A stretch of 43,907 nucleotides of DNA from Balneolaceae bacterium (GTDB lineage: Bacteria; Bacteroidota; Rhodothermia; Balneolales; Balneolaceae). Under the pieces are notes generated by a model. It made no database searches. It had not been told where the DNA came from and worked only from the letters and a program-made list of their open reading frames with translations. The stretch is taken from positions 1-43,907 of the forward strand of contig SLOU01000049.1 in assembly GCA_007132385.1 (NCBI GenBank). The letters run 5' to 3'. The position numbers and the translations under genes were made by a program. Positions 16,853-21,655 of this stretch are shown here, piece by piece; the stretch's first letter is position 1; every line of letters starts with the position of its first letter.

Positions 16853-17404
16853 CTATTCAACCACAAGTTGCCCGCGCATTCCCGCAGCAAAATGACCGGG
16901 AAACGTACATGCATACTCATATTCCCCCTGCTCTTCCGGGACATCAAACTCGATGGTGTCTGATTCACCACCCCCAAGCATAGCGGTGGTTGCAATAATC
17001 TGATCTTCGAAAGCCGGTGCGATATATTCGTTATCGGCTGCCGTAGCAGACTCTCGCACAAACTGATCCACATCTGCATCCAAATCAACAATGGCCAGAT
17101 TATGAGACATTGCCGTTGCAGGAAGTTCACTACGGGTGTGCAGTATAATACGCAACCGCTCACCGGGAGATGCCTGAATTTGCGTAAGTTCATACTCATC
17201 TCCTACCTGGCCGGCAGTTACAAGCCCGTCCGCTTCCTCGGCAACAACAAATCGCATATCGTCCGTACCGATAATTTCAATCGTTCTCACGTCATCATCA
17301 GCGACAGCTTCCGATTCCTCGGCAGGTGTCCCCTCTCCATTACCGCAAGCAACCATGCTCACCATGAACACGATCAGTATTGAATATACACTCAGTCTTT
17401 GCAT
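16853..17404 (-). CDS. Azurin-like cupredoxin lipoprotein
   Basis: A 183-residue type 1 copper protein carried on a lipoprotein anchor. A lipobox V-S-M-V-A-C puts the lipidated Cys at residue 20, followed by an acidic linker. The copper ligands are visible: H101 in M-S-H-N, then C166 and H171 in C-T-F-P-G-H, and M176. This is the azurin/plastocyanin order, with one extra residue between the last His and Met compared with azurin. I choose the ATG at 17404 because GGAG sits six bases ahead of it; the in-frame ATG at 17416 overlaps that site. It lies downstream of coxI and sco1 on the same strand. An electron-donor role towards the ba3 oxidase, or copper delivery, is likely but inferred from position. 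Confidence 0.85.
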   Translation of the reverse strand: MQRLSVYSILIVFMVSMVACGNGEGTPAEESEAVADDDVRTIEIIGTDDMRFVVAEEADGLVTAGQVGDEYELTQIQASPGERLRIILHTRSELPATAMSHNLAIVDLDADVDQFVRESATAADNEYIAPAFEDQIIATTAMLGGGESDTIEFDVPEEQGEYEYACTFPGHFAAGMRGQLVVE

Positions 17405-17582
17405 AATATACTCCATTAGATTACAGATTTATTAACTCATACTGATTAAAGAATCGTTTTTAACTCAAAAACATTTCGAAAACCAGTCGATTTCCCCATT
17501 TCATTTAATTTCTTTTCATTTATTACAGGTTCAAGGTCATATTTTTACATGAATACGTCATGAAGAAAAAATCTGAATATTC

Positions 17583-18197
17583 TCAAAAAGAATCCAAAAG
17601 AGTCCTGAGATCCCCGACAACTTCTTCGGATCTTAATTCACTTCCTCGATAATGCCGGCGGACATTTCCTTCTTTATCCACAAGGGTAATCCTGTCGGTA
17701 TGATCAATAAAGTAAATCTCTCTTCCCGAATCGGTAAACCTCGTTGGAGATTTTAATGTTGCAATGCCGAGCCTGTCAAGAAGCTGATTTACGCTTCTGC
17801 TATTTCCGGTAAGCAACGACCACTTCTTTTCATCGAGGCTGTAATTTTCTGCATATTCTGCCAGTATCTCCGGAGTATCACGTGCCGGATCAAAACTGAT
17901 GCTTAAGAAATAAATATCTTCCCGGTCCAGTTCCCGTTCGACATCTCTCATATTGTAAGTAACCAATGGACAAACATCAGGACAATTCGTATAGACATAT
18001 CCTACAAGAAGTGCTTTACCTTTAAATGCTTCCGGGAAAATTACATCATTTCCCCTGTGGTCCACAAGTTCAATCTCCAAATCATTCAAGTCATCCTGAA
18101 TTTCAAGGCGGTCACACGCAAAAAAAACAACGCAAAACAATACCGGAAATAAAAAAAGAAATCCTCGGAAATGTGTTTTATGAATGCTCATTCTCAA
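17583..18197 (-). CDS. SCO1/SenC-family copper chaperone lipoprotein
   Basis: A 204-residue thioredoxin-fold protein of the SCO1/SenC/PrrC family, needed to load the CuA site of cytochrome oxidase. A lipobox-like F-F-A-C at residue 28 anchors it in the membrane facing the periplasm. The copper-binding motif is N-C72-P-D-V-C76-P with the third ligand H166 in F-I-D-H-T-D-R. The flanking S-I-S-F-D-P-A-R-D-T-P is also family-typical. All ligands are intact, so metallochaperone activity is expected. It follows the oxidase subunit I gene by 90 bp and precedes the azurin-like gene, consistent with a role in assembling this oxidase. Confidence 0.93.
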   Translation of the reverse strand: MRMSIHKTHFRGFLFLFPVLFCVVFFACDRLEIQDDLNDLEIELVDHRGNDVIFPEAFKGKALLVGYVYTNCPDVCPLVTYNMRDVERELDREDIYFLSISFDPARDTPEILAEYAENYSLDEKKWSLLTGNSRSVNQLLDRLGIATLKSPTRFTDSGREIYFIDHTDRITLVDKEGNVRRHYRGSELRSEEVVGDLRTLLDSF

Positions 18198-18287: not shown

Positions 18288-19970
18288 CTAATAGGGTATA
18301 GGGTTATTCGGATCAAATCTTGGTGAACCTCCATATGTACTTCCCAACACATCCAAAATAACCGGTGTATATGCTATCACGATTAAAATAATGGCAACAA
18401 TAATCCATGGCTTGAAATTTCTGAGCCAGCTTACCTCTTCATTGTGATAAGCCTCAGAAACCGGAAATGTAAGCTCCGGTTCACCTTCCCGCTTTTTAGA
18501 GAAAACCGTTGCAAAAAACACGACAGCATAAATAAGAATTGAAAGGGTCATGATGACACCTCCAACCACACTTATGTCGATATAACTGATCCATTCAGGC
18601 TGAAACAGTACACTGTCGGGATTGGCATAGGTAGGACCGGTATTTGTCCGCCTCGGCATACCGATCAGCCCGCCGCGCATCATTCCCCACGAAAAAATAA
18701 ATACTCCGATCATCCATATATAGGGTACTGACAAAGACAATCCCTTCATTTTGACCTCTTTATTCAGGTATTTTCCAAGCAAATAGAGGCTCATACCCAT
18801 AAATGCCAGCAATACCGGCCCGGCGACGGTGAGGTGAAAATGCCCTGGCACCCAAGCGGTGTTGTGAACCGCCGTATTCATCTGATAGGAAGCGTTCACG
18901 ATACCGCTGATACCACCAAAAATAAAAATGATCAATCCTGTAATCAGGTAAGAGAAGAGCCACCGGTCTTTTTCGAAATAGGGGAGTTTGAACATCCAAC
19001 CGAAAAGACCTTTCCCGCCGCGTTTGCGACCTGCGTATTCAAGGCTGGCAGCCAGAGTAAAGGCGGTGATCAAACTCGGAAGTGTAACGGCAAACGTAAA
19101 AAACCCGTGAAGTAACTTCCATTCGGCACCGATAGAGGGATCCATATATTGATGATGCGTTCCAACAGGAATCGAAAATATAATAAAGAGATAGAAAACA
19201 AGACGCCCAGCCCCATCGGAATAGAGTTTCCCACCTGCAAGTTCGGACATGTAACTGTAATACATGACATATGCCGGAAGAAGCCAGAAATAGACCAGCG
19301 GGTGGCCAAAAAACCAGAACAGAGTACGGGCAAGCATCACATTGATTTCATCTACGAGCCCCATCGACCACGGAAGCAGCATGAACAGGATCTCAAAGGC
19401 GACGGCCGAGGTTGCAATCAGCCAAACGATAAATGTGACAAATATTCCAACAACTGAGAGCGGAATTTTCCTGCCCGGATTTTCCTTTCTCCAGCGCAGG
19501 TACATCGGAATCCAGTTGAAAAAGCCAATCCACGATCCAACTACCAGAAGAGTTAACCCTATATAAAAAAGCGGATGGGCTTTCATAGGAGGGTAAAAGG
19601 TATACAATACGGTCGCTTCACCAATATAAATCATGATACCGGCCATCAAAGAACCGAAAAGCATCAAAATGCCCGATACCCAGGCCCAGGTCATGTTCAT
19701 CGCCATTTTCAGGGCATAGGGAATCACCGCATTGCCGAAAGCAACGGCAAAAAATGTGGTAAATACAATCGCATTCAGAACCCCATGCATGGTCAGACCC
19801 TTGTAGTAATCCGGTCCCATAAACGGATCACTCTGGACAATACCTGCACGGAAAAGAGTCTGCATCAAACCACCATATACTCCGATCACAAGCATTATCA
19901 TGGGAATGATGAGAAGCACCGCCATCAGGTACTGGCTCGATTTGTCAATTTTCATCACATATTGGTTCAT
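18288..19970 (-). CDS. ba3-type cytochrome c oxidase subunit I
   Basis: A 560-residue catalytic subunit of a B-family (ba3-type) heme-copper oxidase, with about 13-14 membrane helices. It reduces oxygen to water and pumps protons. All cofactor ligands can be placed: low-spin heme H62 and H379; active-site heme H377; CuB H223, H272 and H273; cross-linked Tyr Y227 in G-H-P-L-V-Y-F-W-L-L-P. The G-H-P-x-V-Y order and the Y-I-G-E-A-T-V-L-Y-T-F-Y-P-P segment match the Thermus ba3 type rather than aa3 or cbb3 oxidases. The start codon overlaps the stop region of subunit II by 4 bp (ATGA), so the two are translationally coupled. No subunit III, CtaA or CtaB gene is in the window. Such oxidases generally have high oxygen affinity. 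Confidence 0.95.
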   Translation of the reverse strand: MNQYVMKIDKSSQYLMAVLLIIPMIMLVIGVYGGLMQTLFRAGIVQSDPFMGPDYYKGLTMHGVLNAIVFTTFFAVAFGNAVIPYALKMAMNMTWAWVSGILMLFGSLMAGIMIYIGEATVLYTFYPPMKAHPLFYIGLTLLVVGSWIGFFNWIPMYLRWRKENPGRKIPLSVVGIFVTFIVWLIATSAVAFEILFMLLPWSMGLVDEINVMLARTLFWFFGHPLVYFWLLPAYVMYYSYMSELAGGKLYSDGAGRLVFYLFIIFSIPVGTHHQYMDPSIGAEWKLLHGFFTFAVTLPSLITAFTLAASLEYAGRKRGGKGLFGWMFKLPYFEKDRWLFSYLITGLIIFIFGGISGIVNASYQMNTAVHNTAWVPGHFHLTVAGPVLLAFMGMSLYLLGKYLNKEVKMKGLSLSVPYIWMIGVFIFSWGMMRGGLIGMPRRTNTGPTYANPDSVLFQPEWISYIDISVVGGVIMTLSILIYAVVFFATVFSKKREGEPELTFPVSEAYHNEEVSWLRNFKPWIIVAIILIVIAYTPVILDVLGSTYGGSPRFDPNNPIPY

Positions 19971-20440
19971 AAATCACCCCCTGTGGCTTCAACTTCATCA
20001 TCTTCAGTGATGTGTATGCGTCCGGCCATGGCGTGATGTGCAGCACCGCAAAACTCGTGACAAGCGAAAAAATATTCACCCGGTTCATCAAATGTGACCG
20101 ACATATAATTGATGGAATTGGGAACAGCCATCAAATTCACATTCTTGTTTTCAATTTTGAACCCGTGAATGATATCTTGGGAGGTCACATACATATGAAG
20201 TGTCGAACCGGCAGGTAGTGTAACCGTAGATGGCTGAAAAGCCCACATACGGGCAATCATATGGAGTTCGTATTCATCTTCTCCAACCTGAAATAGCGTA
20301 TCGGTTGTGAAAGGCTCTACATCCGTTATACAGGTGGGAACCTGTATATTTTTCGCTACTGAAGCATATAGGATTGCTACGAAAAAAGTAATCAAGAGCA
20401 ATCCACTGAGTCCGAGAGCAAATTTTTCCGATTTATCCAT
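19967..20440 (-). CDS. ba3-type cytochrome c oxidase subunit II (CuA)
   Basis: A 157-residue subunit II with one N-terminal membrane helix (about 10-30) and a periplasmic cupredoxin domain carrying the dinuclear CuA centre that accepts electrons. The ligands are visible: H92 in D-I-I-H-G-F, then C127-H-E129-F-C131-G-A-A-H135-H-A-M138. Length fits the short single-helix subunit II of ba3 oxidases. The start ATG at 20440 has AGGGGG just ahead, which overlaps the stop codon of the subunit IIa gene one base upstream, so IIa, II and I form a tightly coupled operon. The acidic C-terminal tail (D-D-E-V-E-A-T-G-G-D-L) has no known role. Confidence 0.94.
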   Translation of the reverse strand: MDKSEKFALGLSGLLLITFFVAILYASVAKNIQVPTCITDVEPFTTDTLFQVGEDEYELHMIARMWAFQPSTVTLPAGSTLHMYVTSQDIIHGFKIENKNVNLMAVPNSINYMSVTFDEPGEYFFACHEFCGAAHHAMAGRIHITEDDEVEATGGDL

Positions 20441-20441
20441 A

Positions 20442-20573
20442 TCACCCCCTGCTCAAGACTTCAAAATAGATTGAAAACCACAAGATCAAAAACATGACCA
20501 TCATGATAATAAAAAAAGCAATTGACCCACGGGGAATAAATTCCTCCGCTTTCTCCGGTTCTTTTCCTTTCAT
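20442..20573 (-). CDS. ba3 oxidase subunit IIa-like 43-aa membrane peptide
   Basis: A 43-residue single-helix protein. The N-terminal third is charged (M-K-G-K-E-P-E-K-A-E-E). F-I-P-R-G-S-I-A-F then leads into a membrane helix (about 17-37) containing L-I-L-W-F-S-I-Y, and it ends L-S-R-G. Size, single helix, a G-x-x-A entry, W-x-x-x-Y near the helix end and the terminal R-G all recall subunit IIa of the Thermus thermophilus ba3 oxidase, which is 34 residues. AGGAG lies about eight bases ahead of the ATG. The stop is one base before the subunit II start, which makes the gene the first of the oxidase operon. It probably replaces the missing second helix of subunit II. Identification is by position and resemblance. 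Confidence 0.82.
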   Translation of the reverse strand: MKGKEPEKAEEFIPRGSIAFFIIMMVMFLILWFSIYFEVLSRG

Positions 20574-20716
20574 TGCAGGTCTCCTGGTAAGGTTTAAGTT
20601 GATTTGTTAACCAAAAGTGAGCAGATCCCCCGCTTTTTATTTGTTGCTTCTGCACTAACCCCGACAGTGAATGTAATACATACGGATAAAGAAGTAAAAA
20701 GATAACCCTGTCTTAT

Positions 20717-21655
20717 TTATAAATACCGTATACTGACCGTACCACCGGATGTTCGAGCCCGAACCACTGGTCCTCCTTCATGTATGGTTCCTCTTATACT
20801 GTTCCGTTCCACCGTTCCCGTAAAGCCGTCAAGTTCCGATTGTACTCTTGAACCCCGGAGATCGAGTTCAAATCCAATATCTTTCGGAAGTTCTACACGG
20901 ATGCTTCCCCCACTTGTTTGAAGGTCCAGATGCTCACTCACCCGGTCCATTTTGGCACGAATGCTTCCACCGCTGGTTCTGGCATCCACAGCACCTGAAA
21001 TATTTTCCAATCGAATACTTCCTCCACTGGTTCTAACATTGAGTTTTCCGGCACTATTTTCGGCAGTGATACTGCCTCCGCTTGTCCGGGCATCCAATTC
21101 TCCTTGTACGCTTTCTATACGGATGCTTCCGCCCGACGTTCGCGCATCGACTTTTCCGGTTAGCCTGGAAAGAGTCAGACTCCCACCGCTGGTTCGCAAA
21201 TAAAGATCACCTTCAAGATTATCAGCAGTAATGCTTCCTCCACTCGTTCTCGCATCCAACCTGGTTTTTTCAGGTGTATACACGATAAAAGAAACAGACA
21301 AGTTCCTATTTCTCCATCCCTGCCAGCCACTTCTACCTTCCCTCCTGGCAGAGGCTCTCACGCTATTGCCATCCTGCTCAATACTGATTTCAAATTCATC
21401 GAGGCTCGTGTCAGTATCAGTCAGATAACGGTTGTTTCTTCGAACGTACATCTCAACCCTCACTTCATCGGTTTCTGAGCCTTTCACACGGATAAAACCA
21501 CCGGAGGTTTCAATATCAATATGTTCCGGCTGATCAAGATCAAATGTTTTAACCAGGTAGGCCTGATCCGCCTGCTGAGCTTTCGATTGGCCGGTAAACA
21601 GTGCCACACAAAACATTAAAAAAAAGGCTGCTGATATGACGTGGAGATTCTTCAT
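20717..21655 (-). CDS. DUF4097-family secreted repeat protein
   Basis: A 312-residue exported protein: a signal peptide (about 1-26, ending S-K-A-Q) and then a beta-strand repeat domain of the DUF4097 (adhesin-like) family. A T-S-G-G-S motif recurs at residues 136, 154, 172, 190, 208 and 226, exactly 18 residues apart, then at 246. Related copies lie at 49 and 301. Each repeat reads R-T-S-G-G-S-I followed by a strand and a G-x-L-D-A turn, which should give a stacked beta-solenoid with a ladder of Ser/Thr/Gly. The many Arg residues on the ladder contrast with the otherwise acidic proteome. Its function is unknown; it is not a typical adhesin with an anchor. It lies upstream of the oxidase operon on the same strand but 143 bp away. 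Confidence 0.8.
   Translation of the reverse strand: MKNLHVISAAFFLMFCVALFTGQSKAQQADQAYLVKTFDLDQPEHIDIETSGGFIRVKGSETDEVRVEMYVRRNNRYLTDTDTSLDEFEISIEQDGNSVRASARREGRSGWQGWRNRNLSVSFIVYTPEKTRLDARTSGGSITADNLEGDLYLRTSGGSLTLSRLTGKVDARTSGGSIRIESVQGELDARTSGGSITAENSAGKLNVRTSGGSIRLENISGAVDARTSGGSIRAKMDRVSEHLDLQTSGGSIRVELPKDIGFELDLRGSRVQSELDGFTGTVERNSIRGTIHEGGPVVRARTSGGTVSIRYL
20903..21250 (-). repeat. 54-base tandem coding repeats in the DUF4097 gene
   Basis: Six units of 18 codons and a seventh offset by two codons, each starting with the codons for R-T-S-G-G-S (Q in the last). The amino-acid motif is nearly invariant, but the codons differ among copies, so the repeats are old and under protein-level selection rather than recently expanded. 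Confidence 0.85.

Follow-up and report, generated by a model that had tools for sequence, protein, structure and literature searches.

A 43-residue open reading frame on the minus strand of a 43,907-nucleotide contig from a Balneolaceae bacterium (the window, meaning the whole stretch of DNA analysed) is very probably the gene for subunit IIa of a B-family (ba3-type) cytochrome c oxidase. The peptide is homologous to solved IIa chains and conserved as a protein, its frame lies directly 5′ of a one-helix subunit II, and subunits I and II themselves have B-family features; together these argue for the three-subunit (I, II, IIa) form that the original prediction had proposed, and we infer that the peptide is part of the complex. 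The frame runs from 20573 to 20442 (in-frame stops occupy the plus strand), and its translation is MKGKEPEKAEEFIPRGSIAFFIIMMVMFLILWFSIYFEVLSRG, with an average mass of 5103 Da. The predicted AGGAG site and single membrane helix both withstood re-examination (Table 1): hydropathy gives one peak, with a mean Kyte-Doolittle value of 2.66, and in many of 30 Balneolaceae-type loci, though not in all, a GGAG/GAGG-like site lies ahead of the IIa start. As had also been noted, a single base (20441) separates the TGA, which ends at 20442, from the subunit II ATG at 20440-20438. The frame would head the oxidase operon, as originally proposed; scans of 20400-20800 for the transcript start found neither a sigma-70-like promoter nor a TANNTTTG element.

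Table 1 Features of the oxidase region in the window
Feature	Position	Strand	Basis
DUF4097 gene, ends 143 nt upstream of IIa, same strand	20717-21655	-	
AGGAG ribosome-binding site of IIa, 7 nt 5′ of ATG	20581..20585	-	sequence
Predicted subunit IIa gene (CoxIIa/CbaD-like), 43 aa, one transmembrane helix (residues 17-35)	20442..20573	-	homology, position, conservation, hydropathy
AGGGGGTGAT: last two IIa codons (Arg-Gly), stop, one base; best anti-Shine-Dalgarno match 5′ of subunit II	20441..20450	-	pairing energy
Subunit II, 157 aa, one N-terminal helix, CuA domain (H92, C127, C131, H135, M138)	19967..20440	-	7deg_B E=1.9e-43
Subunit I, 560 aa, B-family haem-copper oxidase; 4-nt overlap (ATGA) with subunit II	18288..19970	-	7deg_A E=5.3e-180
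SCO1/SenC copper chaperone	17583..18197	-	PF02630 E=1.5e-25; order kept in relatives
Lipid-modified azurin-like cupredoxin	16853..17416	-	3ay2 E=2.3e-14

Searches against solved structures identified the ba3 IIa chain of Aquifex aeolicus as the best match to the peptide (7deg_C, E=4e-7), with the Thermus chain 1xme_C at E=0.02, and all three window subunits are nearest to Aquifex aeolicus among solved structures, not to Thermus (7deg_C, 7deg_B and 7deg_A). The 41-residue Aquifex chain (CoxIIa; 59% identity in the alignment) resembles the window peptide in size, in its one helix, in a P-x-G at the helix start, in W-x-x-x-Y (W32-F-S-I-Y36 in the window), in the terminal R-G and in the location of its gene directly 5′ of subunit II; the conserved Gly14 and Trp30 of Aquifex align with G16 and W32. 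Thermus thermophilus IIa (CbaD; 1xme/1ehk chain C) shares the one helix, the W-x-x-x-Y, the terminal R-G and, by the gene order given in PMC3128077, the position directly 5′ of subunit II, but it is only 26% identical, is shorter (33-34 aa) and lacks the charged N-terminal stretch. P, G, Y, R and G are invariant in the alignment of the window peptide with the solved IIa chains. The P-x(1-3)-G-[T/A] motif described for most published IIa members (PMC3128077) reads P-R-G-S in the window and P-x-G-A in the seven other aligned Balneolaceae members.

A profile search with the CoxIIa family, put forward in the original prediction as a check, fell short: Pfam PF08113 scored the peptide at 17.7 bits, under its curated cut-off (a detection threshold) of 20.7, and NCBIfam gave no match for it. 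Because the same model gives Aquifex 7deg_C 18.5 bits, also under the cut-off, and the Thermus chain 67.3, it is a model that mainly fits Thermus-like chains. One of seven Balneolaceae relatives scores 21.8 bits and another is printed at 20.7; across 19 relatives none lies above the cut-off, and the weak matches are mostly chance.

The IIa, II, I and SCO genes lie in that order on one strand, followed by the azurin-like lipoprotein gene. Like IIa, subunit II has one hydropathy peak, and its CuA ligands (Table 1) correspond in turn to Aquifex H96, C131, C135, H139 and M142. The K-channel residues of subunit I are present (Y227, Y238, S299 and T302), with Tyr-Tyr and Ser-Thr spacings equal to those of Aquifex Y226, Y237, S300 and T303; both Aquifex residue lists come from PMC3128077. 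By alignment, the Aquifex dimer-loop residues Tyr328 and Arg337 are without counterpart in the window subunit I. At residues 66-67 of subunit II (20240-20245, minus strand), the window and all other members of a set of eight aligned Balneolaceae subunits II have Trp-Ala; Trp66-Tyr67 of A. aeolicus is the electron entry pair to CuA proposed in PMC8251803.

Two neighbours keep their placement. The azurin-like gene adjoins the oxidase in 26/26 Balneolaceae-type loci whose downstream DNA reaches far enough, and the other lineages examined gave no such gene next to the oxidase; many family members have more distant homologues at other places in the genome, with matches at E<=1e-10 in 34 of 58 genomes. 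The lipoprotein may be an electron donor of the oxidase. Upstream, 24 of the 27 Balneolaceae-type loci that include 1.5 kb or more on that side have a DUF4097 gene ahead of the cluster on the same strand, a conserved placement from which a functional link or co-transcription may follow.

Conservation of an unbroken frame in relatives, a check set by the original prediction, was borne out. Among 58 related genomes, a close subunit II (E<1e-70) and a strong IIa match (E<1e-10) occur in the same eight, and in every one of them, the window included, IIa lies 1-6 nt 5′ of subunit II; in four more genomes, whose subunits II are 34-36% identical, IIa is longer and divergent and lies 16-18 nt upstream. 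Named genome records, when scanned, yielded 63 subunit II loci, reduced to 62 by leaving out L112, which starts inside subunit II. All 62 have an IIa-like frame 5′ of subunit II, at 21.4-88.0 bits against a profile that contains six of the genomes tested. They span Balneolaceae, Rhodothermaceae, Kapabacteria/Chlorobiota and Aquificota, and also cover bins labelled WOR-3/Thermotogota, Chitinophaga, an acidobacterial bin and one haloarchaeon. As controls, 3150 first-order resampled upstream regions reached 9.4 bits at most, and the regions upstream of 10 A-type or other subunit-II-like genes gave a maximum of 2.1 bits.

Of 395 genomes from the phylum, the IIa profile finds matches in 36 (E<=0.01) and the profile of subunit II in 43 (E<=1e-15); each count includes some genes other than ba3 genes. 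One profile match, a 62-residue frame with an IIa-like end in genome G319 (L202:27-215, plus strand), was rejected as IIa: it is weak, no oxidase lies beside it, and we take it as chance. More divergent IIa genes occur within the window's class, in the f6/f9 and f12 genomes; in each of the six f6/f9 loci missed by the profile, direct reading revealed a frame with one helix, P-x(3)-G-T and W-x-x-x-Y, located 4-10 nt 5′ of subunit II.

Furthermore, IIa is under purifying selection as a protein. In 30 Balneolaceae-type loci the IIa frame is free of stops (0/30), and the other two frames of the same strand contain them in 28/30 and 20/30. Difference rates at codon positions 1, 2 and 3 are 0.289, 0.074 and 0.554, and over 26 codons pN is below pS in 433 of 435 pairs (mean pS 0.737, mean pN 0.187). 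Two loci labelled as Chitinophagaceae and Rhodobacteraceae MAGs (L055 and L064) carry Balneolaceae-type oxidase genes that fall among Balneolaceae in the tree; these are probably mislabelled bins.

The W-x-x-x-Y and the terminal R-G had both been read as Thermus-like. Both are present, but the second does not by itself stand as a sign of Thermus likeness: its codons largely coincide with the putative ribosome-binding site of subunit II, which makes R-G weak evidence of such likeness. In the window the AGGGGGTGAT site pairs at -13.5 kcal/mol, against a mean of -6.2 for versions with synonymous codons weighted by local codon use (p=0.072). We surveyed anti-Shine-Dalgarno matches in the window and 61 loci, leaving out L112 and L114. 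Where the gap to subunit II is at most 6 nt (50 loci), the best match falls at least partly within the last codons of IIa, and the end residues vary by lineage (RG, RR, RGG, RV, RQ, GA) while a G+A-rich run of DNA stays. The site is stronger than its synonymous versions at p<=0.05 in 27 of the 50 short-gap loci and in none of the 12 with longer gaps, the loci being related and not independent; several short-gap loci show no such excess. Codon choice points the same way: AGA and AGG make up 0-11% of Arg codons in Kapabacteria/Chlorobiota loci, yet the last IIa codon is AGG in 5/5, and in two Rhodothermaceae-type loci they make up 0%, although both loci (2/2) write the terminal Arg as AGG; these loci, too, are related and so not independent.

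These patterns suggest that the codons of the terminal R-G usually serve as the ribosome-binding site of subunit II as well. Whether the Arg-Gly is instead kept for protein function, as a Thermus-like feature, has to be weighed against this. R-G is common to the window, Aquifex and Thermus chains; Chitinophaga keeps AGG for its terminal Arg despite a gap of 11-12 nt and no strong site; and the f6/f9 peptides end in N-R written in CGN codons, 4-10 nt from subunit II and with little Shine-Dalgarno likeness. Set against these cases are the changing residues over a persistent G+A-rich run at short gaps, the excess over synonymous versions confined to short-gap loci, and seven Aquificota loci in which the site lies inside the gap and IIa ends in SFAD, SFSD, TFAD, SSAG or QTQP. 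That the Arg-Gly is kept for protein function rather than as the ribosome-binding site is possible, though we consider it unlikely. A search of titles and abstracts returned no prior treatment of the overlap between the IIa tail and the ribosome-binding site, which may still be published.

A frame that ends in the ribosome-binding site of the next gene could also be a leader or translational coupler that only delivers ribosomes to subunit II, its peptide having no place in the enzyme. The shortness of the frame and the 1-nt gap would suit such a role, as would the last codons themselves. A coupler is, however, at odds with conservation as a protein across phyla, with the pN and pS values above and with the residues held invariant with solved IIa chains; the solved structures contain the peptide, and the homology to 7deg_C strongly opposes this explanation, which we judge very improbable. 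A chance open frame resembling a membrane helix is less credible still, a negligible prospect, and we reject it: one-helix frames arise easily, and the G319 frame is one case of a weak profile match with no oxidase beside it, but the recurrence in 62/62 loci, the low scores of the resampled and control regions and an unbroken frame with pN below pS are against it.

Given the assignment as subunit IIa, solved relatives suggest how the peptide would sit in the enzyme. In these, IIa runs parallel to the subunit II helix at the site of the first subunit II helix of A-type oxidases, in the opposite orientation, and in A. aeolicus it is reported at the dimer interface, lining a naphthoquinone groove with helix 11 of subunit I (PMC3141039, PMC8251803). 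By analogy, the window IIa helix would pack next to the subunit II helix and against subunit I, filling the place of the A-type helix in reverse, with its N-terminus inside and its C-terminus periplasmic, and would stabilise the complex and its lipid/quinone contacts. With its last codons predicted to supply the ribosome-binding site of subunit II, the two subunits are probably translated together. Active enzyme was obtained from Geobacillus subunits I and II alone (PMC3128077), so IIa may be non-essential.

The groove offers a further lead. By alignment, with chain index plus 5 giving the numbering of PMC8251803, the quinone-binding (head) Glu39 of Aquifex IIa is Ser41 in the window, the groove residue Val36 is Glu38, and the subunit I groove residues Val438 and Met437 are Arg432 and Met431. 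When an acid at IIa positions 38/39 was compared with a base at subunit I positions 431/432 in the 78 loci with data, 46 had both, 30 neither, two a base only (L056 and L075) and none an acid only, so that wherever IIa is acidic, helix 11 of subunit I has a base (46/46). Some Balneolaceae loci carry the base at 432 (Arg) and others at 431 (Lys), and Glu38 is present in all but two. Predictions for 11 phylum genomes, fixed before subunit I was inspected, held in 11/11; another eight genomes, for which no prediction had been made and whose acid sits one position further on, all have Arg432. On the subunit I tree, where acid labels were assigned by hand, the acid changes four times and the basic residue twice, and three independent pairs gave two differences the same way, none the other way and one no difference (p=0.5). 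With so few independent changes the covariation is a lead only, too thin for proof. A more ambitious proposal, which we regard as speculative and improbable, is that IIa is not a passive filler helix: Glu38 would pair with Arg432 (Lys431 in sister lineages) on helix 11 in the equivalent of the Aquifex groove, either forming an alternative acid/base quinol site or closing the groove and leaving a copper protein or cytochrome as the sole route of electrons into the enzyme. On that proposal IIa would set donor choice in B-family oxidases.

The window IIa is a further case of a subunit already described across B-type oxidases, expected but easily overlooked. Among 36 B-type oxidase regions, Prunetti et al. 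(2011; PMC3128077) reported IIa in 27, unannotated in six of these, and always accompanied by a one-helix subunit II. Their Table 1 includes Rhodothermus marinus and Salinibacter ruber, the latter with IIa unannotated; these genes lie beside a B-type oxidase as in the window, the likeness noted being one of gene position. Among the papers that a literature search listed, none has Balneolaceae and cytochrome c oxidase in its title or abstract. By gene content, the three-subunit ba3-type oxidase would extend through Balneolaceae and sister groups, in which Pfam and NCBIfam models mostly leave IIa unnamed. Two details are open to experiment: the tail of IIa appears to contain the translation start signal for subunit II, and IIa may be tied to subunit I by a charge pair within the groove that binds quinone in Aquifex.
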